From Bacillota bacterium (GTDB lineage Bacteria > Bacillota > DTU030 > DUMP01), in the NCBI GenBank assembly GCA_012837285.1, contig DURJ01000002.1, positions 1 to 34,919 of the forward strand: DNA of 34,919 nucleotides, read 5' to 3'. Positions 4,625 to 28,671 of the stretch are shown piece by piece. A model generated the notes under the pieces. The model was given only the letters and a program-made list of their open reading frames with translations. It searched no databases and had not been told where the DNA came from. The position numbers and the translations under genes were made by a program. Each line of letters begins with the position of its first letter. Position 1 is the first letter of the stretch.

Positions 4625-4711
4625 TGGGAAAGAACGTTCGCCTTTGGGCTTATTTAGCCCCAAAAGTGGGGAATGTATAACGAGTCTCATTGTCGGAAAG
4701 CTGGTGAAAAG

Positions 4712-5190
4712 GTGAGACCGGTCTTGTTTACACTGGGTCCAATTAAAGTTTACAGTTGGGGTTTCCTATTGGCCACCGCTACTTTGCTGGGTACTTGGGG
4801 TGCTGTTTGCTTGGCCCGCCAAGAAGGCTGGCAGCAGCCGGAGGGCTTGCTGGATGTAGCTGTGGGCGGTGTACTGGCTGGGGTAGTGGGGAGCCGTCTT
4901 AATTACCTGCTCCTGTACGACGCCGCCGAGTTTCTGCGCCAGCCGCTGATTTTCTTTCGTTTTTCCAGTGGCGGCTTGGTTTTTTACGGCGGATTGGTGA
5001 CCGGTATTGCCGCCGCTGCCGGGCTGGCTTATCGACGGGGGTTTAGGTTTTGGGCCTTATGTACTCGTCGACACTAAGTCTGGCTCAAGTGGTGAGTGCG
5101 GCGCTGTTTGTGTTGGCAGTGGCCCTGTATTGTTGGCGCCGACAGGCGGCAGAAGGGACAGCGTCGTCCGAGAAAGGCAAGCTGGCTTAA
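4712..5190 (+). pseudogene. lgt: lgt remnant (prolipoprotein diacylglyceryl transferase) with internal deletion
   Basis: Lgt attaches diacylglycerol to the lipobox Cys of prolipoproteins at the membrane. From GTG 4712 the frame encodes the Lgt N-terminus: LGPIKVYSWGFLLA, VVGSRLNYLL and the GGLVFYGGL motif, ending near RFW at about residue 115, after which it terminates at 5077. The Lgt C-terminus reappears in another frame from about 5059 (LSLAQVVSAALF, then a hydrophobic helix and CWRR), stopping at 5190. The roughly 100 residues between, including the essential GRIGNFxN region, are absent. This is an out-of-frame internal deletion, not a single sequencing error. The two lipoproteins in this window imply an intact lgt elsewhere. 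Confidence 0.8.
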
Positions 5191-5780
5191 CCGGTTTCCA
5201 GTTGGGCTATGTTCTGCACTTGGCCGACAAAGTCGGCAGTCTTAGAGCGGGGGATGGCCACGCGAAGAGTCACTTGTTGTTGATAATCAGCCGTTACCAC
5301 TTGGCCGTCACTCTTTCTTACCAAGTACAGGCATTGATCCAGCTCCGGATAATCCAGGACTAACTGAAAGGTCTCGGTGATGACTTTGTCCACAGTCCCG
5401 GCGGCAGCCAGGGCTTGGGCGGCGGTGCCGCCGTAAGCTTCGATCAGTCCGCGGATGCCGAGTTTTTTTCCGCCGAAGTAGCGGGTTACTACCACCGCTG
5501 TGTCCATGAGCTCCAGACTCAAGATAGCGCGCAAAATGGGCTCGCCGGCAGTACCGGTGGGTTCACCGGCATCACTGGCAAAACGAATGTCGCGCTCGGG
5601 ATCGACCCGGTAGGCCCAAGCGTTGTGAGTTGCCTGTCGATGCAATTCGCTTCTGGCAGAAATGAAGTCCTTGGCTTCTTGTTCCGAATCTACTGGGCGT
5701 GCCCGCCCAATAAAGCGGGAGCGCTCTATTTTTATTTCCACTTCGGTTTCTTGGGCCAGGGTACGGTATGTATCTACCAC
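5187..5780 (-). CDS. yvyE: YigZ/IMPACT-family protein
   Basis: About 197 residues of the YigZ/YvyE family, whose N-terminal half is related to eukaryotic IMPACT. The hallmarks are IERSRFIGRA, THNAWAYR, SDAGEPTGTAGEPIL, the VVTRYFGGKKLGIRGLIEAYG segment, and a C-terminal ferredoxin-like DUF1949 half at about 130-195. The cellular role is unproven (proposed in translation or stress regulation). The TTG at 5795 is in frame, but it overlaps the GGAGG at 5789-5793 that properly serves GTG 5780, so the shorter form is chosen. Its stop overlaps the end of the lgt remnant by 4 bases, tail to tail. Confidence 0.9.
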   Translation of the reverse strand: MVDTYRTLAQETEVEIKIERSRFIGRARPVDSEQEAKDFISARSELHRQATHNAWAYRVDPERDIRFASDAGEPTGTAGEPILRAILSLELMDTAVVVTRYFGGKKLGIRGLIEAYGGTAAQALAAAGTVDKVITETFQLVLDYPELDQCLYLVRKSDGQVVTADYQQQVTLRVAIPRSKTADFVGQVQNIAQLETG

Positions 5781-5934
5781 TGGGCACACCTCCAATTATC
5801 CCCATCATAGCACATTTTCCGGCCAGTTGCTGTTAGCCTCTTGCCTTGACCACCGGCACCTGACTTAAAGAGGTTTCTATGGGCTATGGTCAAGCCAAGA
5901 AAAGTAAATAAATGTTTAAGAAATCATTTTTTAC
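5781..5934. promoter_or_regulatory. divergent control region between yvyE and the osmolyte transporter
   Basis: This gap and the leader that follows contain no gene. It carries CTTGACCACCG at 5845-5855, the inverted core TGGTCAAG at 5887-5894, and abuts another CTTGACCACCG at 5934-5944 that forms the transporter -35. The spacing (34 and 39 bases between cores) would suit a looped or bipartite operator, but no regulator is known for this motif. On the minus strand a TATGAT at about 5806-5811 could be the yvyE -10; I see no clear -35 for it. Confidence 0.4.
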
Positions 5935-14916: not shown

Positions 14917-16449
14917 ATGGTTCAGCGGGAGCTAGTTTTGATCATAGATTTTGGCGGCAATGAAGCGCAGCTATTGGCTCAACGGGTGCGGGAGCTGAAA
15001 GTGTATGCTGAGCTGGTACCGCCTACTGTAACGATGGCTAGTGTGCAGGCCCGTAAGCCTAAAGGGATAATATTTAGCGGTGGGCCGACTTCGGTTTTGG
15101 CTCCTGGCGCGCCGACCATAGACCGGGATATATTTGAGCTGGGTATCCCGGTGCTTTGTATTGGGTACGGGCATCAACTCATGGCCCAAGTTTTAGGCGG
15201 GACAGTTTTTGAACAACCGGTAGGTGAGGACCGGTGCCAGCAGTTGACAGTGGACCGCCCAGAAGGGGTCCTGACCGGCTGGGAACGGGAGGAACGGGGT
15301 TGGTTTCGCTCCGGGGCGCGAGTGGTAGCACCGCCGCCGGGCTTTTCGGTGTTGGCCCACACCGCCGCTCTACCGGTGGCTGTGATGGCGGATCTTGAGC
15401 GGCACTTGTACGGAGTGGGGTTTCAGCCTCAGGTGGCCGCTACGGCCAAAGGTGTGCTGCTGCTGCGCGCGTTCCTGTTTGATATTTGTCGTCTAAGCGG
15501 CCAGTGGAACATGGGAACCTTTGCCGAAGAAGCCATGGCCGCGATTCGCACCCAGGTGGGGACGGGGCAGGTAATATGCGGTTTAAGTGGTGGGGTCGAT
15601 TCGTCGGTGGCTGCCACTTTGGTCCACCGGGCAGTAGGCGATCAGCTTACCAGTATTTTTGTCGATCATGGATTGATGCGTCAAGACGAGCCGGAACAGG
15701 TAATGTCTACTTTTCGGCAGCGCGGGTTCAAACTGATTTACGTGGATGCGCGTCAGCGTTTTCTAACCCGGCTGGCCCAGGTCTCCGACCCGGAGAAAAA
15801 GCGCAAAATAATCGGGGAAGAATTCATTCGCGTGTTCGAACAAGAAGCGGAGCGCCTGGGCCAAGTAGATTTTTTGGTCCAGGGAACGGTTTATCCCGAT
15901 GTGATCGAAAGCGGCAGCGGTTCGGCTGTAAGGGTGAAGTCCCACCACAATGTGGGTGGGCTGCCGGAAAAGATGGATCTTAAGCTAATCGAACCTTTGC
16001 GCTTTTTGTTCAAGGACGAGGTGCGCCGGCTGGGCGAGGAGCTGGGGTTGCCGGCAGAGATGGTCTGGCGTCATCCTTTCCCCGGTCCTGGTTTAGCAGT
16101 CCGCGTATTAGGGGAAGTGACAGCGGAAAAACTGGCTATTTTACGGGCAGCCGATGCCATTGTTATCGAGGAGATCAAAGCGGCTGGGTTGTACCGAAAA
16201 CTGTGGCAAGTTTTTGCCGTATTGCCTGATATCAAAAGCGTGGGTGTAACCCACGGTGCACGCACCTATGCTTATACCGTCGGTATTCGGGCGGTAGAGA
16301 GCACCGATGCCATGACAGCCCAGTGGGCCGAGCTGCCGTACGAAGTGCTGGATAAAATAGCGCAGCGCCTAACTAGTGAAGTGCCTCATGTTAACCGGGT
16401 GGTGTATGATATTACTTCCAAGCCACCGGCCACTATTGAGTGGGAATAA
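14917..16449 (+). CDS. guaA: GMP synthase with degenerate glutaminase domain
   Basis: GuaA aminates XMP to GMP. The 510-residue protein has the normal two-part layout. The synthetase half looks intact: PP-loop [11 protein letters not shown] at about 221-231, [19 protein letters not shown], the [11 protein letters not shown] motif, and the C-terminal dimerisation domain ending KPPATIEWE. The N-terminal glutamine amidotransferase half (about 1-195) is clearly homologous ([16 protein letters not shown]) but lacks the catalytic triad. The usual GICYG is CIGYG, with Gly83 in place of the nucleophile Cys, and the usual FHPEV is FQPQV, with Gln170 and Gln172 in place of His and Glu. The DFGSQY motif is DFGGNE. 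It should therefore depend on ammonia, or on ammonia from another protein. ATG 14917 follows GGGAAGG. The purine cluster follows downstream. Confidence 0.93.
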
Positions 16450-16815: not shown

Positions 16816-16925
16816 TGAGGGAAAGTGTGCCTAGGGTTCCGCGCACATACGGTCTGGACCAAGTGGCACAGGCGCTGTAGCGCTACACCGAAGGGGGAAA
16901 AGCCCAGGCGGGGAGGTTTCACTCA
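16816..16925 (+). ncRNA. ykkC subtype-2 riboswitch, probably PRPP-sensing
   Basis: The ykkC core is present: CCTAGGGTTCC (16830-16840), GGTCTGGACCAAGTGGCAC with GTG(T)GCC as partner, a variable hairpin GGCGCTGTAGCGCT, CACCGAAGGG, then AAAAGCCC and GGGGAGG. P1 pairs TGAG-g-GAAA (16816-16824) with TTTC-a-CTCA (16917-16925). The GGACCAAG form in place of the GUCCGAGAG of guanidine-I members, together with the purE operon downstream, points to the PRPP class (2b) rather than guanidine or ppGpp. P1's 3' strand overlaps the arm of the following terminator, so ligand binding should switch the operon on. Confidence 0.85.
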
Positions 16926-17026: not shown

Positions 17027-17524
17027 ATGGACAAAGAGCCTCAAGTGGGCATCGTTTTAGGCAGTGCGTCCGATGGTGCTTTAGGTCAGGAAATTACAAA
17101 AGTCTTGACTTCTTTTGAGGTGTCGTTTGAGCTGGTGGTGGCTTCGGCCCACCGTACACCCCAAAAGGCTTCTTTGTACGCTAAGGAAGCAGCCGGACGG
17201 GGGATAAAGGTACTTATTGCTGTTGCCGGTTTGGCGGCCCATCTGCCGGGAGTACTGGCGGCGGATACCGTACTTCCTGTTATTGGGGTGCCGGCGGCAG
17301 GAGGGACTTTGGGCGGGCTGGATGCCCTGCTGTCCATAGCCCAGATGCCGGGAGGCATTCCCGTAGCTTCTGTTGGTATCAACAATGGTAAGAACGCGGC
17401 CCTGCTGGCAGTGGCTATTTTGGCTCTCTCCAGCCAAAGCCTGGCTCAGCGGTTACAGGCGTATCGCCAGGAACTGGCAGCCCAGGTAGAGGTGGGGGAG
17501 CAGGAAGTATTGCGGGAATTGTGA
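17027..17524 (+). CDS. purE: PurE, N5-carboxyaminoimidazole ribonucleotide mutase
   Basis: PurE rearranges N5-CAIR to CAIR in purine synthesis. The 165-residue product has the class I pattern: GSASD near the start, SAHRTPQ at about 42-48, AGLAAHLPGVLA at about 69-80, GVPAAGGTLGG and QMPGGIPVASVGI. ATG 17027 follows GAGGGAGG. Class I PurE normally needs PurK to make N5-CAIR; purK is not in this cluster, so it is elsewhere or a bypass applies. First gene after the riboswitch, with a 354-base gap to purL. Confidence 0.95.
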   Translation: MDKEPQVGIVLGSASDGALGQEITKVLTSFEVSFELVVASAHRTPQKASLYAKEAAGRGIKVLIAVAGLAAHLPGVLAADTVLPVIGVPAAGGTLGGLDALLSIAQMPGGIPVASVGINNGKNAALLAVAILALSSQSLAQRLQAYRQELAAQVEVGEQEVLREL

Positions 17525-17878
17525 TCTTAGGTCAAATGTTTCCCACCATAATGCTGTTCATTTGCTTACCGGTCTTTTGCTCGCTTTTGTGAAGTCCACA
17601 AAGCAGGATAAGGTCAGTGAGTAAGTGAAGGGGCTAGGTGTCGTGTAGTTGTCTGGTTGTATGGCCATCCTGAAAGCGGGGCTAAGCCCTCGATCAAAAG
17701 AGCGCAGACCAGTGAGGACAGGGCGGAGCGGCTGTTTCCCACCTTACAGGGTGTACAGGGAGCGAAGCGAGTTGCCCGAAGCCCCCGAGCGAGCCAAGCT
17801 CCGTCGTTCTGGGGGGCGCCGCGGAGCGTAAGGATAACCTGTAACCGGATCAACCATGAAAAAAAGGGGGTTTTTCTG
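17525..17878 (+). other. purE-purL intergenic region, partly structured, no gene
   Basis: No credible reading frame: the open frame leading into purL has no family match before 17879. The first half is featureless apart from TGTTTCCCACC at 17537, repeated at 17733. The second half is GC-rich and self-complementary: TTACAGG (17744-17750) pairs with CCTGTAA (17838-17844), enclosing GCCCCC/GGGGGGC (17781-17786 with 17811-17817) and GAGC/GCTC. In many Firmicutes purK, purC, purS and purQ lie at this point; no remnant of them was recognised. It may be a mobile repeat or an RNA element ahead of purL. Confidence 0.5.
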
Positions 17879-20053
17879 ATGGTGGATTACAAAAGCATGG
17901 GGCTTTCCGACGAAGAATATTCAAAGATCGTAAAGCTCATGGGGCGGGAGCCCAATGAGACCGAGACCGGAATCTTTGCTGTCATGTGGTCCGAACACTG
18001 CGGCTATAAGAATTCACGTCCGCTGCTCAAACTATTTCCCACCGAGGGTAAATATGTCCTTCAGGGGCCGGGCGAAAATGCCGGAGTAGTGGATATTGGC
18101 GACGGACAAGCAGCGGTATTTAAGATCGAGAGCCACAATCACCCGTCGGCAGTGGAACCGTATGAAGGAGCGGCCACCGGCGTGGGCGGCATTGTGCGTG
18201 ACGTGTTTGCTATGGGTGCCCGTCCGATAGCGTCTATTAATTCTTTGCGCTTTGGCGAGCTTAACGATAATCACACCCGCTGGATATTTGATGGGGTGGT
18301 GGACGGCATTGCCGGCTATGGTAATACCCTGGGCGTGCCTACAGTAGCCGGGGAAGTGTATTTTAGCCCTTCCTACCAGGGTAACCCACTGGTAAACGCC
18401 ATGGTGGTGGGACTTTTAACCGGTGATCCGGCTAAAGGGTTAGCAGCCGGCGTAGGTAACAAGGTGCTCCTGGCCGGTGGCAAAACAGGGCGCGACGGTG
18501 TTCATGGGGCCACTTTTGCTTCCGGGGAGTTGGACGAAAAGTTGGAGGAACGGCGAGAGGCTATTCCGGCCGGTAACCCGGAGCTGGAAAAACGCCTCAT
18601 CGAGGCTTGTCTGGAAGCACTGGCTGCCGGGCACGTGGTGGGTATGCAGGATCTGGGTGCAGCCGGCCTTACTTCTTCCAGTGCCGAGATGGCGTCACGG
18701 GCCGGCACGGGCATGGAGATGGATCTTTCATTGGTTCCGGTCAAAGAAGAAGGCCTTACCCCGTACGAAATGATGCTGTCGGAATCGCAAGAACGCATGC
18801 TGCTGGTAGTTGAGCAGGGTTACGAAGAAGAAGTGCGGCAAATTTTCACCCGCTGGGATATCGAATCGGTCTATATTGGACAAGTAACAGACGATGGCCT
18901 CCTTAGAGTCTACCATGACGGGGAGATTGCCGCCGAAGTGCCGACAAAATATCTCACCGAAGAAGTGCCCACGTACGTACGCCAAGGTCAGATGCCCGGT
19001 TATCTCAAGGAGGAACAGTCTTTCGATTGGAGCACTCTGCCGGAGCCCGCTGACTACAACGAAGCTTTGCTTAAGCTGATGTCGTCAGGGAATATCTGTA
19101 GCCGTAAATATATCTGGGAAAAGTTCGATATTGAGGCCCAGGGCAACACAGTAGTGGGACCGGGTTCGGATGCTGCGGTGCTTCAAGTGGAAGGAACGAA
19201 CAAGGGCTTGGCCATAACCGTGGATGGCAACGGACGATATACGTACCTAGATCCCTACACCGGCGGTATGATCGCTGTAGCCGAAGCAGCCCGTAACTTG
19301 GCTGTTACCGGAGCCGAACCCTTGGGATTGACCGATGGCCTCAACTTTGGCAACCCGGAAAAGCCGGAGGTATATTGGCAGCTACAAAAGGCCATTGAGG
19401 GCATGGCAGCCGCTTGCCGGGCGCTGGAGATTCCAGTGGTAGGCGGAAATGTGAGCCTATACAACGAGATCGAAGGCCAGGCCATTTTCCCCACCCCTAT
19501 AGTCGGTATGGTGGGCTTGCTGCCGGATGTGTCCAAACACGCGCGGCAGGGATTTCGAGCGGCCGGGGATCTAATTGTGCTGCTGGGCAGTACAGAGGAT
19601 GAACTAGGTGGCAGCGAGTATCTGTATGCGCTGCACAATCTGGAAACGGGACGTCCGCCGCACCTGGATTTGGACCGCGAACTTCGGATTCAGAGCTTAT
19701 GCCGCCAGGCTATAGCCCGGGGACTGTTGGCTTCGGCCCACGATGTTTCCGACGGCGGGCTGGTGGTAGCTATAGCCGAAAGCTGCCTGACTGGGAAAAA
19801 CGGTCCCCTAGGTGCCACAGTCAAGGTAGACCTTGGCAGCTTGCGCCGAGACAGTGCCTACTTCGGTGAGACTCAATCCAGGGTTGTGGTGTCAGTAGCA
19901 CCGGATAAACTTACGGCCCTGGAGAACCTCACCGCTGACTTTGGCGTACCCTATACTGTTTTGGGTAAAACCGGTGGCGATCACTTTACAGTGGACGATG
20001 TTATCTCGCTGCCGTTAACAAAACTGCAGCAGGCTTGGGAGGGGACATTTTAA
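17879..20053 (+). CDS. purL: PurL, FGAM synthase large subunit (small, PurQ-dependent type)
   Basis: PurL makes formylglycinamidine ribonucleotide from FGAR, ATP and glutamine-derived ammonia. The 724-residue length is that of small PurL, which lacks its own glutaminase and works with PurQ and PurS. Two AIR-synthase-like repeats are visible: WSEHCGYK with the catalytic His at about 39-46 and [21 protein letters not shown] at about 83-103, then GPGSDAAVL and GGNVSLYNE in the second half. The long open frame upstream (to 17657) is not part of the gene: ATG 17879 with GGGGG upstream fits the family N-terminus. No purQ or purS lies in the window. TAATG overlap with purF. Confidence 0.96.
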
Positions 20054-21438
20054 TGCCGCCACTTAAAGTTAGGGAAAAGTGCGGCGTGTTCGGTATTTAT
20101 GCTCCGGGCGAAGACGTGGGGCGGTTAACTTACATGGGGCTGTTTGCTCTGCAGCATCGCGGGCAAGAAAGTGCCGGTATAGCTATCACGGACGGTCGAA
20201 CCATTGTATTGGAGAAAGACCGAGGCTTGGTGGCCGAAGTGTTCACTCCCGAACGGCAGCAACGTCTCCATGGCAAGTTAGCTATCGGCCATGTGTTGTA
20301 CGGCAATACCGATACCCAAAGTAACGTGGAAAATGCTGAACCTCTGGCGGTAATGTCCCGCCGGGGTTCCTTGGCTTTGGCCCATAACGGAGAAATTACC
20401 AATGCCGATGCCCTAAGAGCTGAACTCAGTCGTCGTGGCTATCTGTTTCGTACCGACAGTGATATCGAAGTTATCGCCAGTCTCGTTGCTCAAGCGGAAG
20501 ATCCGGACTTAACCTCGGCCCTTATATCTACCCTCAGAAAACTAAACGGTGCTTATGCCTTGGTGGTGCTAACTCCCGATCGTATTATGGGTATTCGCGA
20601 CCCGCACGGCATTCGCCCGCTGTCTTTGGGCCGGTTCGACGGCGGTTATGTCTTGGCCTCAGAAACGTGTGCCTTCGATACCGTTGGTGCCCAGTTTATC
20701 CGACCGGTAGAGCCGGGTGAATTGGTGACCATAGGACCGGACGGTATTTCGTCCCAGCGTTTTGCTCCCGGTGAAAAAGCGGTCTGCACCTTTGAGTATA
20801 TCTATTTTGCCCGCCCCGACAGTCTGATCGAAGGGATCGGTGTTCATGGCGCCCGCCGGCGGGCCGGCCGGATTTTGGCCTCTGAACACCCGGCCAAGGC
20901 CGATATGGTTATTTCTGTACCCGACTCGGGCACATCGGCAGCTTTGGGTTATGCGGAGGCAGCCGGAATTCCCCTGGATGCAGGGTTGATCAAGAACCGC
21001 TATGTGGGGCGGACGTTCATAAAACCGAGCCAGAAGGACCGGGAATTTGCTGTGCAGCTAAAGCTCAGTCCTTTGCAGGAGGTATTGGCCGGAAAGAGTG
21101 TGGTAATGGTAGACGATTCCATTGTCCGCGGAACCACCTGTGGGCGGTTGGTCCGAATGCTGAAGAAGGCCGGGGTGAAGAACGTGCATGTACGAGTAGC
21201 CTCGCCACCGGTAATCAGCCCCTGTTACTACGGTATTGACACCCCTTACCGCCAAGAGTTGGTGGCCGCGCAGTTGACGATTGAGGCTATTCGGACTAAC
21301 ATCGGTGCTGACTCGTTGGGTTTCCTCAGTACAGAGGGGCTAAAAAACGCTATCGGACTTCCGGATGATCCTTATTGCATGGCCTGTTTCAGCGGTCATT
21401 ACCCCGCCGGTCGACCGGACAAGGAAGAGGAGGAATAA
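20053..21438 (+). CDS. purF: PurF, amidophosphoribosyltransferase with altered glutamine site
   Basis: First committed enzyme of purine synthesis (PRPP plus amide nitrogen to phosphoribosylamine), 461 residues. A nine-residue propeptide precedes Cys10 (REKCGVFG), the Ntn nucleophile. Arg36 in [12 protein letters not shown] and the TDSD Asp are retained. The glutamine-binding VRY-x-T-x-G motif is changed: HVLYGNTDT, with Leu82 replacing the essential Arg (E. coli Arg73) and Asn and Asp at the Thr and Gly positions; HNGN reads HNGE. The PRTase half is intact ([13 protein letters not shown]) and all four putative 4Fe-4S Cys remain (VCTFEY, SPCYYG, YCMACF). It starts at ATG 20053, eight bases after GGGAGGGG. 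Confidence 0.95.
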
Positions 21439-21442
21439 CAGG

Positions 21443-22495
21443 ATGCCGACAGAAAGCTGGAGCTATGCCAAGGCCGGTGTAGACATCAATGCCGGCAACG
21501 AAGCCGTACGACGAATCAAACCCTTGGTACAGGGGACCATGAGGCCGGAGGTACTGTCCGGTATCGGCGGCTTTGCCGGCTTGTTTGCCTTGGCCGAGGG
21601 AAAATACCGCCGGCCGGTGCTAGTGTCAGGTTGTGACGGTGTGGGTACCAAGCTAAAAGTTGCCTTTGCTGTAGATAAGCACGACACGGTCGGCATAGAT
21701 TGTGTGGCTATGTGTGTAAACGACATCTTAGTTCTAGGGGCCGAACCTCTGTTTTTCCTGGATTACCTAGCGGTAGGGCGCTTAATGCCGGAACAAGTGG
21801 AGCAGGTAGTACGCGGTGTGGCCGAAGGTTGCCGGCAAGCCGGCTGTGCGCTGCTCGGTGGAGAGACGGCGGAGATGCCGGGGTTTTATCCAGCGGGCGA
21901 ATACGATCTGGCCGGGTTTGCTGTCGGCGTAGTGGAAAAAGACAGCATCATCGATGGCCGCACCGTGGTTCCCGGAGATGTTATCTTAGGACTCGGTTCC
22001 AACGGACTGCACAGCAATGGGTTTTCACTGGTGCGCAAGGTGCTGTTAGAAGAATCCCAGTTGAATCTGGCTTGTTCTGCAGATGACTTCAGACACTCGT
22101 TGGGGGAAGAGCTGCTGGAGCCCACCCGGATCTATGTACCATCTATTCTTGGTTTATTACCGCAGGTTTCTGTGAAGGGCATGGCTCATATCACCGGCGG
22201 CGGGTTAGTGGAAAATGTGGTCCGAGTGCTGCCGGCAGGGACCAAAGCGGTGATTAAGGCCGGCAGTTGGCCAGTACCACCTATATTTAACCTTATTCGT
22301 GAACAGGGTCAGGTGGCAGAGGCGGAGATGGCGCGCACGTTTAACTTAGGAGTTGGGTTCGTGGTTATTGTTGCTGCTGCTGATGCCGCTCGGGCGACCG
22401 AGATCCTGGCCGGTACAGGAGAAAAAGTCTATACCGTAGGCAGGGTGACAGCCGGTGATCCGGCGGTAGAGATAGGAGGGAGCATTTTCTCATGA
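21443..22495 (+). CDS. purM: PurM, AIR synthetase
   Basis: Closes the imidazole ring: FGAM plus ATP to AIR. The 350-residue product begins [15 protein letters not shown] and carries [42 protein letters not shown] and [17 protein letters not shown], all standard. The open frame extends back to 21365 inside purF, but AAGAGGAGG at 21424-21433 fits ATG 21443. Its TGA overlaps the purN ATG (ATGA). Confidence 0.97.
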
Positions 22496-23127
22496 AATCG
22501 GGCTTAGCAGTGTTAGCTTCCGGGCGCGGCACGAACCTTCAGGCCATCATCGATGCCTGGGAGCACGGTACTCTACCGGTAGACATTGTCGGTGTGCTCA
22601 GCAACAATCCAACAGCCCAAGCTCTTGATCGAGCCCGATCCTGTGGCATTCCCACAGCGGTGCTTCGGCTTAAAGACTACCCCGATCGGCGCTCCTATGG
22701 GGAAGCGTTAGTTAAGCAGCTACAAGATTGGCAGACGGACCTAGTGGCCTTGGCCGGCTTTATGCTGCTGCTCGACCCAGTGGTTATTGAAGCGTTTCCT
22801 CATCGAATCCTCAATATCCATCCGGCCCTGCTACCGTCGTTTAAGGGCATTAACGCCCAGCAGCAGGCGCTGGACTATGGGGTACGTGTCACCGGTTGCA
22901 CTGTTCATCTTGTGGATGAGGACATGGATACCGGGCCGATAATATTACAAGCAGCAGTCCCGGTACTGCCAAACGATACCGAAGAAACTCTGGCGGCGCG
23001 CATTCTGACCGAAGAACATCGCCTTTATCCCGAAGCCATTCGGTTGCTGGCCGCCGGCAGGATAAAGGTTTGTGGCCGCAAAGTACGGATTTTGGCTAAA
23101 GGAGAAGATAACATTGATCAAAATTAA
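22492..23127 (+). CDS. purN: PurN, GAR formyltransferase
   Basis: Transfers the formyl group of 10-formyl-THF to GAR. The 211-residue protein has [13 protein letters not shown] at about 8-20, the catalytic [12 protein letters not shown] (Asn, His) at about 105-116, and [10 protein letters not shown] with the catalytic Asp. It overlaps purM by ATGA and purH by 14 bases. Its cofactor can be made by the fhs and folD genes downstream. Confidence 0.97.
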
Positions 23128-24646
23128 CAGGGCTTTGTTGTCGGTATCGGACAAGAGCGGGCTAATTGAGTTGGCCCAAGGGTTGGTTCAAGCTGGGGTC
23201 GAGATCATATCTTCAGGAGGAACAGCCAAGGCGTTGGCCGAGGCCAGACTACCGGTGCGGCGGGTAGAAGAGATTACCGGCTTTCCCGAAATCTTGGACG
23301 GTCGGGTCAAGACCTTACATCCGGCGATTCATGCTGGGATACTGGCCCGACGCGACGTGCCGGAACATATGGCCAAGTTACAGGAACTGGGCCTTGCTCC
23401 CATAGACCTGGTGGTGGTTAACCTGTATCCCTTTGCCGCTACCATTTCCCGGCCCGATGTAACGCTGGCCGAGGCGGTGGAAAACATCGATATCGGTGGA
23501 CCGACGCTGATCCGAGCTGCAGCCAAGAACCATCAAGGTGTAGCAGTGGTGGTTAATCCGGACCGCTATGGTGACATATTGGCCGAACTTAAGGCCGAAG
23601 GCGGTATTAGCGCTGAGACGGCTTATGGGCTGGCGGCGGAAGCTTTTGCCCATACCGCTCAGTATGACACTGTAATTGCCGGCTACTTAGGAAAACAAGA
23701 ACAGGCTTTTCCGGACAACCTGCATTTGGCTTACATTAAGGCCCTGGATCTTCGCTACGGCGAGAATCCTCATCAAAAAGCAGCGCTGTATGTGGAGCCG
23801 GGCAAAAGTTGCGGGATCCCCGGGGCCAAGAAACTGCACGGCAAGGATCTATCCTTTAACAATATTAACGATGCTAACGGTGCTTGGGAACTGGTACAAC
23901 AGTTTACGGCTCCTTGTGCCGTCGGGGTCAAACATAGCAATCCTTGTGGTGTAGGGGTGGCCGCTGATCTTTTAACTGCTTGGCAAAAAGCATACGATGG
24001 TGACCCGGTATCTATTTTCGGTGGGATTGTGGCTTTTAACCAGACGGTAACAGCCGAGGTGGTGGCAGAACTCAACAAGATTTTCTTAGAAGTGGTCATT
24101 GCTCCTGACTACGCGCCCGAGGCCTTGGACCTTCTTAAAACAAAGAAAAACCGCATTGTGCTACAGGCCGTACCGGGCGGCCAAGGTCGCGAGCGGGATC
24201 TGAAAAAGGTTCGCGGCGGTCTGTTGGCACAAGAACTAGACCAACAAGATTACGCTCCAGACGATTTGAAAGTGGTCACCAAACGGACCCCGACGGCTAA
24301 AGAAATGAAGGATCTGAAGTTTGCCTGGAAAGTGGTTAAGTATGTAAAATCCAACGCTATTGTCTTGGCTAAGGACGAGCAAATCATCGGAGTGGGAGCG
24401 GGCCAGATGAACCGTGTGGGAGCAGTGGATATTTCGGCTCGTCAAGCGGGGCCGAAAGCCCAGGGCGCTGTCATGGCCTCCGATGCCTTTTTCCCCATGC
24501 CCGATTCAGTGGCGAGAGCGGCTGAGGCCGGCGTTACAGCTATTATTCAGCCAGGCGGATCGGTGCGCGACGAAGATTCTATCCGAGCGGCAGACGAAGC
24601 CGGTATAGCCATGGTGTTTACCGGGATGAGGCATTTTAGGCACTAG
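23114..24646 (+). CDS. purH: PurH, AICAR transformylase/IMP cyclohydrolase
   Basis: Performs the last two steps to IMP. The 510-residue product has an MGS-like IMP cyclohydrolase domain ([49 protein letters not shown]) followed by the AICAR formyltransferase domain ([24 protein letters not shown] with the catalytic Lys-His, [24 protein letters not shown]). The open frame extends to 23072; TTG 23114 is chosen because it follows GGAGA by eight bases and matches the family N-terminus. It overlaps purN. Confidence 0.97.
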
Positions 24647-24701
24647 AGTGGACCTAGTTGGCGTGGGAACAGGCTAGTTGATACGAGGAGGGTGTTACGC
24701 T

Positions 24702-25973
24702 GTGAAAATTCTGATAGTGGGCGGTGGCGGGCGCGAACATACGCTGGCCTGGAAACTGGCGCAGAGCCCACGGGTGAAGCGGGCATTTGTAGCGCCGGGT
24801 AATGCCGGTACACGTCAGGTAGCAGAGAATGTGCCCATTGTAGCTACAGATATAGAAGGGCTAGCCAATTGGGCCGAAGAGCAAAGGATTGATCTTACAG
24901 TGGTAGGGCCGGAGGCACCGCTTACCGCCGGGTTGGTAGATGCTTTCACAGCCCGAGGGCTGAAGGCGTTTGGCCCTACGCGCGAAGCGGCAGCTATCGA
25001 GGGGAGCAAGGTTTTCAGTAAGAACCTGATGCAAAAGTATAACATTCCCACTGCAGCCTATGCTGTGTTTACGGAACCGGACAAGGCTAAAGACTACGTA
25101 CGGCAAAAAGAGCTGCCGGTGGTACTTAAGGCCGATGGACTGGCGGCCGGAAAAGGTGTGGTGATAGCCCAGAACCAAGACGAGGCCATGAAAGCGGTGG
25201 AAGATATATTGGAGGCCGGTGTCTTTGGCGCTGCCGGCAATCGGTTGGTGGTGGAGGAATTTCTCCAGGGGGAAGAAGTAACAGTTCTGGCTTTTTGTGA
25301 CGGGGAGCATGTTCTACCCCTGGCGTCTTCACAGGATCATAAGCGCATTTTCGATGGAGATAAGGGGCCGAACACCGGCGGGATGGGTGCCTATTCGCCG
25401 GTGCCAGCCTTAACGTCGGCCCTGGCTGCGGAAGTGGAAAAGACGATTCTAAAACCCACCGTCCAAGCCATGGCCGCCGAGGGCCACCCCTTTAGCGGAA
25501 TATTGTATGCCGGACTCATGCTCACGGCAGACGGGCCAAAGGTATTGGAATTTAACGCTCGCTTTGGTGATCCTGAAGCCCAGGCGGTGATACCGCGTCT
25601 TTGTACGGATCTGGTCGGTGTGATCGAAGCGGCCCTACAGGGTCAGCTGGATAAAGTACAGCTTAGTTGGCGTCCGGAAGCGGCTCTCACAGTGGTGTTG
25701 GCATCGGCGGGTTATCCGGGCCCATATGAAACCGGAGGCCCAATTTCAGGTTTAGAAGAAGCGGCGAAACTGCAGGGCATCTATGTTTTTCATGCCGGAA
25801 CGGCTGTTGCCGGGGGTAAGGTAGTCACAGCCGGCGGCCGGGTGTTGGCTGTTACCGCTTTGGGAGCGGACCTTGGTGTGGCCCAACAGCGAGCCTATCA
25901 GGCGGTGGAGCAGATCAAGTTCGAAGGGTGCCATTTCCGCCGGGACATTGGATGGCGAGCTCTTAGCCGATAA
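24702..25973 (+). CDS. purD: PurD, phosphoribosylamine-glycine ligase
   Basis: Joins glycine to phosphoribosylamine with ATP to form GAR. The 423-residue ATP-grasp enzyme shows VGGGGREHTLAWKLA at the start, VGPEAPLTAGLVD, SKVFSKNLMQKYNIPTA, KADGLAAGKGVV, EEFLQGEEVTVLAFCDG, GPNTGGMGAYSPVP and EFNARFGDPEAQAV. GTG 24702 follows ACGAGGAGGG by nine bases. Last pur gene of the cluster; a 177-base gap precedes fhs. Confidence 0.97.
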   Translation: MKILIVGGGGREHTLAWKLAQSPRVKRAFVAPGNAGTRQVAENVPIVATDIEGLANWAEEQRIDLTVVGPEAPLTAGLVDAFTARGLKAFGPTREAAAIEGSKVFSKNLMQKYNIPTAAYAVFTEPDKAKDYVRQKELPVVLKADGLAAGKGVVIAQNQDEAMKAVEDILEAGVFGAAGNRLVVEEFLQGEEVTVLAFCDGEHVLPLASSQDHKRIFDGDKGPNTGGMGAYSPVPALTSALAAEVEKTILKPTVQAMAAEGHPFSGILYAGLMLTADGPKVLEFNARFGDPEAQAVIPRLCTDLVGVIEAALQGQLDKVQLSWRPEAALTVVLASAGYPGPYETGGPISGLEEAAKLQGIYVFHAGTAVAGGKVVTAGGRVLAVTALGADLGVAQQRAYQAVEQIKFEGCHFRRDIGWRALSR

Positions 25974-26150
25974 GACAAGAAATTGAACGCCCAGGGCAGA
26001 AGAATGCAGAGGAAACGAGATAACTAACAACGAATTCAAATGTGAGGATCTACAAGGTATTTTGACTACCAGTAGCGAATGTAAAGACTATATGCCGAAT
26101 GATGCTAGAGTTACTAGTGTCGGAGAACTACGAGAGAGGTGTTTGCAAAC
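25974..26150 (+). other. purD-fhs gap, possible promoter
   Basis: No reading frame and no terminator hairpin were found. TTGACT at about 26061-26066 could be a -35, but nothing close to TATAAT lies at the right distance (ACTATA comes 19 bases later). Read-through from the pur operon is therefore as likely as a separate promoter. Confidence 0.3.
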
Positions 26151-27818
26151 ATGCTGTCGGACATTGAGATTGCCCAAGGGGCAAAACTGAGGCCCATTAC
26201 GGAGGTGGCATCCTCCCTCGGTCTCGGGGAGGAAGATCTGGAGTTGTATGGGCGCTATAAGGCTAAGATAAGCCCAGCGGTTTGGGAGCGGGTTAAGGAT
26301 CAACCGGACGGAAAACTGGTTCTGGTCACGGCTATCAACCCGACCCCTGCTGGAGAAGGAAAGACCACTGTTTCAGTTGGCTTAGCCGATGCTTTGAGCC
26401 AACTGGGTAAGAAGATAATGGTAGCGCTCAGAGAGCCTTCGCTTGGTCCCAGTTTTGGTCTTAAGGGCGGTGCCGCCGGGGGTGGATATGCGCAAGTAGT
26501 ACCGATGGAAGATATCAACTTACACTTCACCGGCGACATTCATGCAGTTACCACCGCTCATAATCTGCTGTCGGCCATTATAGACAACCACTTACAACAG
26601 GGTAACGAACTGGGTATTGATCCTCGACGCATTACTTGGAAGCGAGTCATGGACATGAACGAGCGAGCGCTGAGAAAGGTGGTTGTCGGACTGGGCGGCC
26701 GGCCCCATGGGGTGCCTCGAGAAGACAGCTTCGACATATCAGTGGCGTCGGAAGTTATGGCTAGTTTGTGCCTGGCTGATAGCTTAACCGAGCTCAAAGA
26801 ACGGCTGGCCCGCATCGTTATCGGCTATACCTATGACGCTAAACCGGTGACAGTAAGGGATCTTAACGCCCAAGGTGCCATGACCATCTTACTTAAAGAT
26901 GCACTAAAGCCAAATCTGGTTCAGACTCTGGGACAAGTACCGGCGTTTGTGCACGGCGGCCCCTTTGCCAATATTGCTCACGGTTGCAATAGTATTCAGG
27001 CCACTCGTCTGGGGCTGAAACTGGCCGACTACATGGTAACAGAAGCCGGTTTCGGTGCTGATTTAGGGGCCGAGAAGTTCTTGGATATCAAATGTAGGGT
27101 AGCTGGCCTTAAGCCCAACGCAGTGGTAATCGTGGCCAGTATTCGCGCCTTAAAGGCCCATGGCGGTGTAGCTAAGACCGAGCTCAAGAAAGAGAATGTA
27201 CCGGCTTTAGAAACGGGTTTTGCCAACTTAGAAAAACAAGTGGAAAACATCCGAGGCTTTGGTTTGCCAGCGGTGGTGGCTATCAACCGCTTCCCCACCG
27301 ATACCAAAGCTGAGATCGAGAAGCTGAGCGAGCTTTGCCGTCGGTTTGGCGTTCCTTTTGCCTTGACAGATGTGTGGGCCCAAGGCGGTGCCGGCGGTAT
27401 CGAACTGGCCCAGGAAGTGATGGCAGCAGCCGAGCGGCCGTCGAACTTTACCTTTATGTATGATCGGGCCCAATCACCGAAAGAGAAGATTGCTGCCATT
27501 GCCACCAAAGTTTACGGTGCGGCCAAAGTAGAGTACACAGCCGAAGCTGAGCGGGATCTGAAGGCTATTCATGGTCAGGGTTACGATGACTTGCTGATTT
27601 GTATAGCTAAAACCCAGTATTCCTTAACTGATGATCCAACATTGGTCGGCCGACCCAGAGATTTTACCATTATCGTGCGGGAAGTCCGCCTCTCGGCAGG
27701 CGCTGGGTTCTTAGTGGCTGTTACCGGCCAGATCATGACAATGCCCGGTTTGCCCAAGAGGCCGGCCGCCTTGAGTATGGATATCGACGCCCAGGGCCGG
27801 ATTACGGGATTGTTTTAA
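26151..27818 (+). CDS. fhs: formate-tetrahydrofolate ligase
   Basis: Makes 10-formyl-THF from formate, ATP and THF: the donor for PurN and PurH, and a step of the Wood-Ljungdahl methyl branch in acetogens. The 555-residue product begins [14 protein letters not shown] and has the nucleotide motif [19 protein letters not shown] at about 65-83, then [32 protein letters not shown] and [14 protein letters not shown]. The length is standard. ATG 26151 is preferred over GTG 26139 because it matches the family N-terminus, with AGAGAGG 11 bases upstream. Followed 13 bases later by folD. Confidence 0.97.
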
Positions 27819-27831
27819 GGGAGGAGATAAG

Positions 27832-28671
27832 ATGACGGCCCAAATTCTAGACGGGAAAAAAGTGGCGGCCGATGTCCGGGCCAGTATCGGGGCCGAAATT
27901 GAGCGGCTTAAAGGTCGCGGCGTTACCCCGGGGCTGGCGGTAGTGCTGGTGGGGGAGGATCCTGCTTCCCAGGTTTACGTACGGAGCAAAGAAAAGGCGT
28001 GCCAAGCAGTGGGGATGAATTCCTTCCTGCACCGTTTGCCCGCCGCAACTGAACAGGACCGGCTGCTAGAGCTGATTAAGCAGCTAAATGCTGCCCCGGC
28101 GGTCCACGGTATTCTGGTACAATTGCCCTTACCGCCGCAGATTGACGCCGACGTGGTTCTTCAGGCCATCGACCCGGCCAAAGACGTGGATGGTTTTCAT
28201 CCCTTCAACGCAGGGAAACTCATGGCCGGTTTGAAGACTTTTGTCCCCTGTACCCCGCGCGGCATTATGCATCTGCTGGCGGTATACAATATTCCTTTGA
28301 AAGGGAAACAGGCGGTGGTAATAGGGCGGAGCAACATCGTGGGCAAGCCCATAGCCCATCTACTGTTGGCTCAGCATGCCACGGTAACGGTCTGCCATAG
28401 CAGAACGGTAGGGCTGAACGATATTACCCGCCGGGCGGATGTGTTAGTGGCCGCCGTAGGCCGGCCGCACATGGTCACTGCCGACATGATCAAGCCCGGG
28501 GCAACGGTGGTAGACGTGGGTATTAACCGCTTACCAGAAGGGTTAGTGGGCGATGTAGATTTTGAAGCGGCCAAAGAAGTAGCCGGCTATATCACCCCGG
28601 TACCCGGCGGCGTGGGACCGCTTACCATTGCCATGCTACTCCAAAACACATTAGAGGCGGCAGCCGTATAA
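27832..28671 (+). CDS. folD: FolD, methylene-THF dehydrogenase/methenyl-THF cyclohydrolase
   Basis: Interconverts methylene-, methenyl- and 10-formyl-THF using NADP(H). The 279-residue product has the family motifs [18 protein letters not shown] (with the YxxxK catalytic pair), [34 protein letters not shown] and [17 protein letters not shown] 27832 follows AGGGAGGAG. With fhs it links formate or C1 units to purine synthesis. Terminator at 28704. Confidence 0.97.

Follow-up and report, generated by a model that had tools for sequence, protein, structure and literature searches.

Glutamine is commonly held to be the obligatory nitrogen donor for purine synthesis in vivo. The window, i.e. the whole 34,919-nucleotide stretch of Bacillota DNA analysed here, carries a guaA gene whose product retains none of the catalytic residues of its glutaminase (GATase) site. 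This raises the question of which nitrogen donor such a GMP synthase uses, and why the inactive domain is still present. The gene and its main features are listed below.

14917-16449, + strand: guaA, GMP synthase with an inactive glutaminase domain (510 aa; NF000848, 704.8 bits, above cut-off; the top Foldseek matches are solved bacterial GMP synthases)
14938-15483, + strand: relict class-I GATase domain, residues ~8-189 (PF00117, 89 bits; AlphaFold2 pLDDT mostly 80-97)
15163-15165, + strand: codon 83 (GGG), Gly replacing the nucleophile Cys (LCIGYGHQ in the alignment versus LGICYGHQ in family relatives)
15424-15426, + strand: codon 170 (CAG), Gln replacing the catalytic His (VGFQPQV versus VQFHPEV)
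15430-15432, + strand: codon 172 (CAG), Gln replacing the catalytic Glu (FQPQV versus FHPEV)
15520-16446, + strand: ATP-pyrophosphatase and dimerisation domains, residues 202-510, with intact motifs (TIGR00884, 489 bits, cut-off 338.75)

Alignment with GuaA proteins of related genomes confirmed the original prediction that the entire triad is replaced, as Gly83, Gln170 and Gln172 occupy the positions of Cys, His and Glu in family relatives. The DFGSQY motif had also been described as altered. The window does read DFGGNE at this site; since the relatives' form is DFGGQY, only the change from QY to NE is derived. The WMSHG segment of the GATase domain is altered as well and reads WFRSG. Neither mark of a glutamine-hydrolysing GMP synthase is found, as the Cys-His-Glu triad is absent and the match to TIGR00888, the model of the GuaA N-terminal domain, is 160.6 bits, below the cut-off of 172.15. 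Deprived of its nucleophile, its base and its acid, the domain should be unable to hydrolyse glutamine. Current family models nevertheless label such enzymes "glutamine-hydrolyzing". In contrast, the synthetase half is intact, as had been predicted. The PP-loop LSGGVDS, the lid loop (a stretch of 10 residues) and the GMP_synt_C domain, which are the features of XMP amination, are all present. The gene is the only GuaA frame in the window and has no internal stops. AlphaFold2 yielded a model with a mean pLDDT of 83.9, and Foldseek matched the entire protein to bacterial GMP synthases of known structure; the N domain is thus predicted to fold still, having lost its chemistry alone.

Neither sequencing error nor chance accounts for the lesions; the original prediction had already excluded a single sequencing error. 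The canonical CHE triad was read in 163 of 194 aligned GuaA rows, the rest having a lost nucleophile, a partial triad, or a shrunken or absent N domain, and related species have overlapping lesions at the same sites.

The window genome (G000) is a draft of 204 contigs and 2.17 Mb, 95% complete with 2% contamination. The original prediction had proposed searching it for a second guaA or a free GATase subunit, and neither was present. The profile search returned one GMP_synt_C match, whereas PF00117 was matched twice, by GuaA itself and by a CTP synthase with an intact Cys-His-Glu triad. Glutamine could in principle be hydrolysed in trans by another glutaminase docking on GuaA, as in the two-subunit GMP synthetases of archaea (PMC10526850). 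This is very improbable, because CTP synthase is the sole other PF00117 protein of the genome and PF13507 has no match, and a trans-acting GATase was rejected on these grounds. Similarly, when a free GATase was looked for in G001, a genome of the same genus, CTP synthase was the only PF00117 protein found. With an inactive glutaminase site and neither another guaA nor a free GATase to replace it, ammonia dependence is the natural reading, and this part of the original prediction stands.

In the window genome, PurQ, PurF and glutamine synthetase are affected by the erosion too, which had been overlooked. The lack of any PF13507 match means that no PurQ was found, either in the genome or in the purine cluster described below. 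Profile searches of the genome gave no match to the carbamoyl-phosphate synthetase large chain, and CarA is not among the PF00117 matches. No double-SIS GlmS was found in it either, and two SIS proteins resemble RpiR-type regulators (named by eye). Glutamine synthetase (PF00120) has no match in G000, in G001 or in G002, a further member of the genus. PurF, the only class-II GATase match, retains its N-terminal nucleophile Cys; its glutamine site, VRYSTAG in family relatives, reads VLYGNTD, and the Arg changed to Leu is the residue that we take to bind the glutamine carboxylate. Since PurF keeps this Cys and the CTP synthase triad is intact, glutamine use may not have been given up entirely. 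In G004, a genome of the same family (93% complete), GuaA, PF00117 proteins, PurQ, PurF and glutamine synthetase were not detected, and two CarB-like proteins were.

The guaA gene is preceded by a vanW-like gene and followed by a set of purine genes.

16820-16912, + strand: ykkC-family riboswitch-like element upstream of purE (RF00442, E 2.5e-8; 53.4 bits, short of the gathering score of 63)
17027-17524, + strand: purE (TIGR01162)
17657-20053, + strand: purL, small-type frame (homology from residue ~75, position ~17879; NF002290 from residue 83)
20035-21438, + strand: purF (TIGR01134; compared with family relatives)
21365-25973, + strand: purM, purN, purH and purD (profile matches)
26139-28671, + strand: fhs (formate-THF ligase) and folD, after the purine genes (PF01268, PF02882)

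Because the adjoining genes are purine genes, the ykkC-like RNA may respond, as a relative of the guanidine switch, to PRPP or ppGpp instead of guanidine. The window also encodes a glycine-betaine ABC transporter. At 4673-5810 (+ strand), an lgt-like match in the ORF 4673-5077 spans just the first half of the profile, and the ORFs around it, which lie in other frames, point to a frameshift or an assembly error.

Dead or deleted GATase domains are also found in relatives of the same genus. In G002, the GuaA Cys is replaced by Gly, His and Glu are kept, and the oxyanion segment SGGP is changed too. In G001, GuaA lacks the GATase domain; a 330-aa synthetase part follows the vanW-like gene after a short gap. 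The triad is canonical in G003, G006 and G007, which belong to a neighbouring genus. In the tree of the synthetase half, G000 and G001 group together, with G002 outside. A similar range occurs in a neighbouring family, in which triads read GHE in G012, GQA in G011 and GYE in G008, and the domain is deleted in G009 and G010. Domain-less GuaA proteins correspond in length and domain content to the archaeal synthetase subunit (2dpl and 6jp9 were among the structural comparisons).

The original prediction had further proposed that the domain is kept for structure or regulation, and this part is less supported. If the enzyme depends on ammonia, its inactive domain could still be actively retained as a module that, for instance, supports the dimer or the lid loop or to which glutamine binds as an effector. 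Consistent with this view, which we consider unlikely, the domain is full length in both the window genome and G002, its GATase fold is confidently predicted (AlphaFold2, Foldseek), and its dN/dS is below 1. An open frame is uninformative here, because a stop in the N domain would cut off the essential C-terminal half as well. Moreover, the synthetase part remains where the domain has been deleted (G001, G009 and G010), the domain is shrunken in many other dead lineages, and conserved segments outside the triad are altered as well. The ratio of N- to C-domain divergence is 1.93 in dead and 1.52 in intact GuaA proteins (p=2.5e-6). Among the dead proteins of G008, G011 and G012, for which synonymous change is unsaturated, dN/dS is 0.44-0.52 in the N domain and ~0.11 in the C domain, versus ~0.05 in both domains between canonical relatives. 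The N domain is therefore mainly a relict, as it diverges faster, has become smaller in other dead lineages and has been lost by clean deletion in a sister species; constraint on it is relaxed (dN/dS 0.16-0.5) yet residual.

Two further explanations were considered. A chimeric or contaminant contig might be suspected in a draft assembly of 204 contigs with 2% contamination. This is highly improbable, since the purine genes lie on a single 35-kb contig, the vanW-guaA order is matched in G001 and G003, and same-genus relatives have overlapping lesions in both GuaA and PurF. It is equally hard to credit that guaA is a dispensable gene in decay, with guanine nucleotides being salvaged. Several glutamine-linked genes are indeed missing, but the synthetase half has stayed conserved, with 79-83% identity to family members and a dN/dS of ~0.05, and guaA lies beside genes for de novo purine synthesis. 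Both pseudogene and artefact were rejected, given the gene order in G001 and the conservation and dN/dS of the synthetase half.

The erosion recurs in many lineages. Among ~112 relatives, the GATase domain of GuaA is dead, shrunken or deleted in 26 genomes, and the commonest lesion in full-length N domains is the change from Cys to Gly. The best tree requires 11 changes of GuaA state, at least 5 of which are on well-supported branches. As a control, we analysed GuaA proteins from 80 diverse named genomes that are 51-59% identical to the window protein; 78 are canonical, and both exceptions are from Bacillota MAGs. The label AS05jafATM appears in a biogas-reactor survey (PMC7038595). G053 carries two guaA genes, a domain-less one on a 40-kb contig and a canonical one on a 4.6-kb contig, the small member of the C94/C57 pair. 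The latter is probably contamination, and G053 was excluded from the main glutamine synthetase test.

Glutamine synthetase is absent from 13 of 25 genomes with a dead GuaA versus 1 of 83 with an intact one (Fisher p=3e-9). The imbalance is similar in genomes at least 90% complete (11/21 versus 1/79) and after collapsing by family (9/15 versus 1/53, p=9e-7). As a glutamine synthetase match persists in 12 of the 25 dead genomes (weak in 4), loss of this enzyme is not required. PurQ is either absent or altered from Cys to Gly or Ala in 23 of 25 dead versus 6 of 83 intact genomes (p=7e-16), with triads read in 10 dead-GuaA genomes and 10 others and the remaining PurQ proteins counted as intact unread. 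The change to Gly (GIGNGFQ and similar) occurs in several lineages (L377, L378, L380, L381, L382, L383 and L385), and the change to Ala in G019 (L375). Glutamine-site residues of PurF are altered in 21 of 23 dead versus 3 of 44 intact genomes (p=3e-12). Since the genomes share ancestry, all Fisher p-values are inflated; in an independent-pairs test with 5 pairs on well-supported branches, the 1-3 informative pairs all point in the predicted direction, too few for significance. Most surveyed genomes are apparently draft MAGs, and some gene absences may be assembly gaps. In G071, a PurQ-like match at C1:1419413-1420202 has several in-frame stops and is an apparent pseudogene.

GlmS is affected in G009 and G010, where it consists of the isomerase domain only (~234-607 of TIGR01135).

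L204:922-2073, - strand: GATase-less GlmS of G010
L206:919-2070, - strand: GATase-less GlmS of G009, with an adjoining glmM-like frame

It would be unusual for a glucosamine-6-phosphate synthase to depend on ammonia. In the CTP synthases of this neighbouring family, the GATase Cys is replaced by Ser (GISLGMQ) in L054 (G010) and L063 (G008).

From these sequence comparisons, we consider it very likely that the window GuaA is an ammonia-dependent enzyme with a decaying relict domain, and that it belongs to a broader change in which free ammonia takes the place of glutamine. In such an enzyme, GMP would be formed from XMP, ATP and free ammonia entering the synthetase active site from solution. 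This is consistent with the finding that, in two-domain GMP synthetases, the synthetase activity does not depend on the GATase and external ammonia can serve as a substrate in vitro (PMC10526850). Capture by glutamine synthetase normally keeps the level of free ammonia low (PMC3376133). Loss of glutamine synthetase would leave a cell with no home-made glutamine and would remove the main ammonia sink. In ammonia-rich surroundings, glutaminase sites would become useless to such a cell and would decay or disappear, as may have happened to GuaA, PurQ, the glutamine pocket of PurF and, within the sister family, the GlmS GATase domain. The relatives suggest a path in which loss of the Cys would be followed by erosion of the triad, shrinkage and deletion of the domain. 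The frequent choice of Gly may plausibly reflect strain relief at the nucleophile elbow. We infer that ammonia is the donor in vivo, and that glutamine synthetase loss or ammonia excess is the driver.

With less assurance, we favour the broader view that the switch is recurrent and genome-wide in anaerobes lacking glutamine synthetase. Purine synthesis (PurF, PurL and GuaA) and, in some lineages, a GATase-less GlmS would run on free ammonia, and glutaminases would have decayed repeatedly, with Cys changed to Gly in unrelated enzymes. The setting was probably that of ammonia-rich anaerobes. Glutamine synthetase is missing from three syntrophic acetate oxidisers that were obtained from digesters with high ammonia (PMC5113046, PMC4374699, PMC5924567). 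The fhs, folD and glycine-betaine transporter genes of the window are compatible, by analogy, with a similar life in an ammonia-rich habitat. In the literature searched, we found no published account of such glutaminase decay or of a pattern linked to glutamine synthetase. One family offers a natural series from intact to dead to deleted glutaminase, coupled to glutamine synthetase loss, which makes the question of why ammonia is channelled from glutamine directly testable. It also supplies GuaA, PurL, PurF and GlmS proteins that are candidates for natural variants working on ammonia only, and the pattern may help to recognise from a genome that its owner lives in an ammonia-rich habitat.

The window GuaA resembles two-domain bacterial enzymes (1gpm, 7sbc) in domain order, fold and synthetase motifs. 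It differs from them in that all three glutaminase residues are replaced and glutamine use is not expected. In the archaeal GuaAa/GuaAb system, the synthetase part alone uses ammonia, a feature that the window enzyme would share; in contrast, no partner GATase subunit was found in the window genome. Catalytic Cys loss has also turned a glutamine amidotransferase to free ammonia in the carbamoyl-phosphate synthetase CPS1, although CPS1 is eukaryotic, a single enzyme and allosterically specialised. Single-domain NadE is likewise an amidating synthetase that works on free ammonia in vivo, competing for it with glutamine synthetase (PMC3376133). Ammonia use is ancestral in NadE, whereas in the window genome it would be a later state, reached in several enzymes once their use of glutamine had been lost secondarily. 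S. schinkii, T. acetatoxydans and C. ultunense are similar to the window genome in lacking glutamine synthetase and, probably, in having an ammonia-rich habitat, and the window also has fhs/folD and a glycine-betaine ABC transporter; unlike the window case, decay of glutaminase domains goes unmentioned in the excerpted accounts of these species. Taken as a single enzyme, the window GuaA is a variation on a known theme, and the surprise lies in the repeated, multi-enzyme pattern linked to glutamine synthetase.
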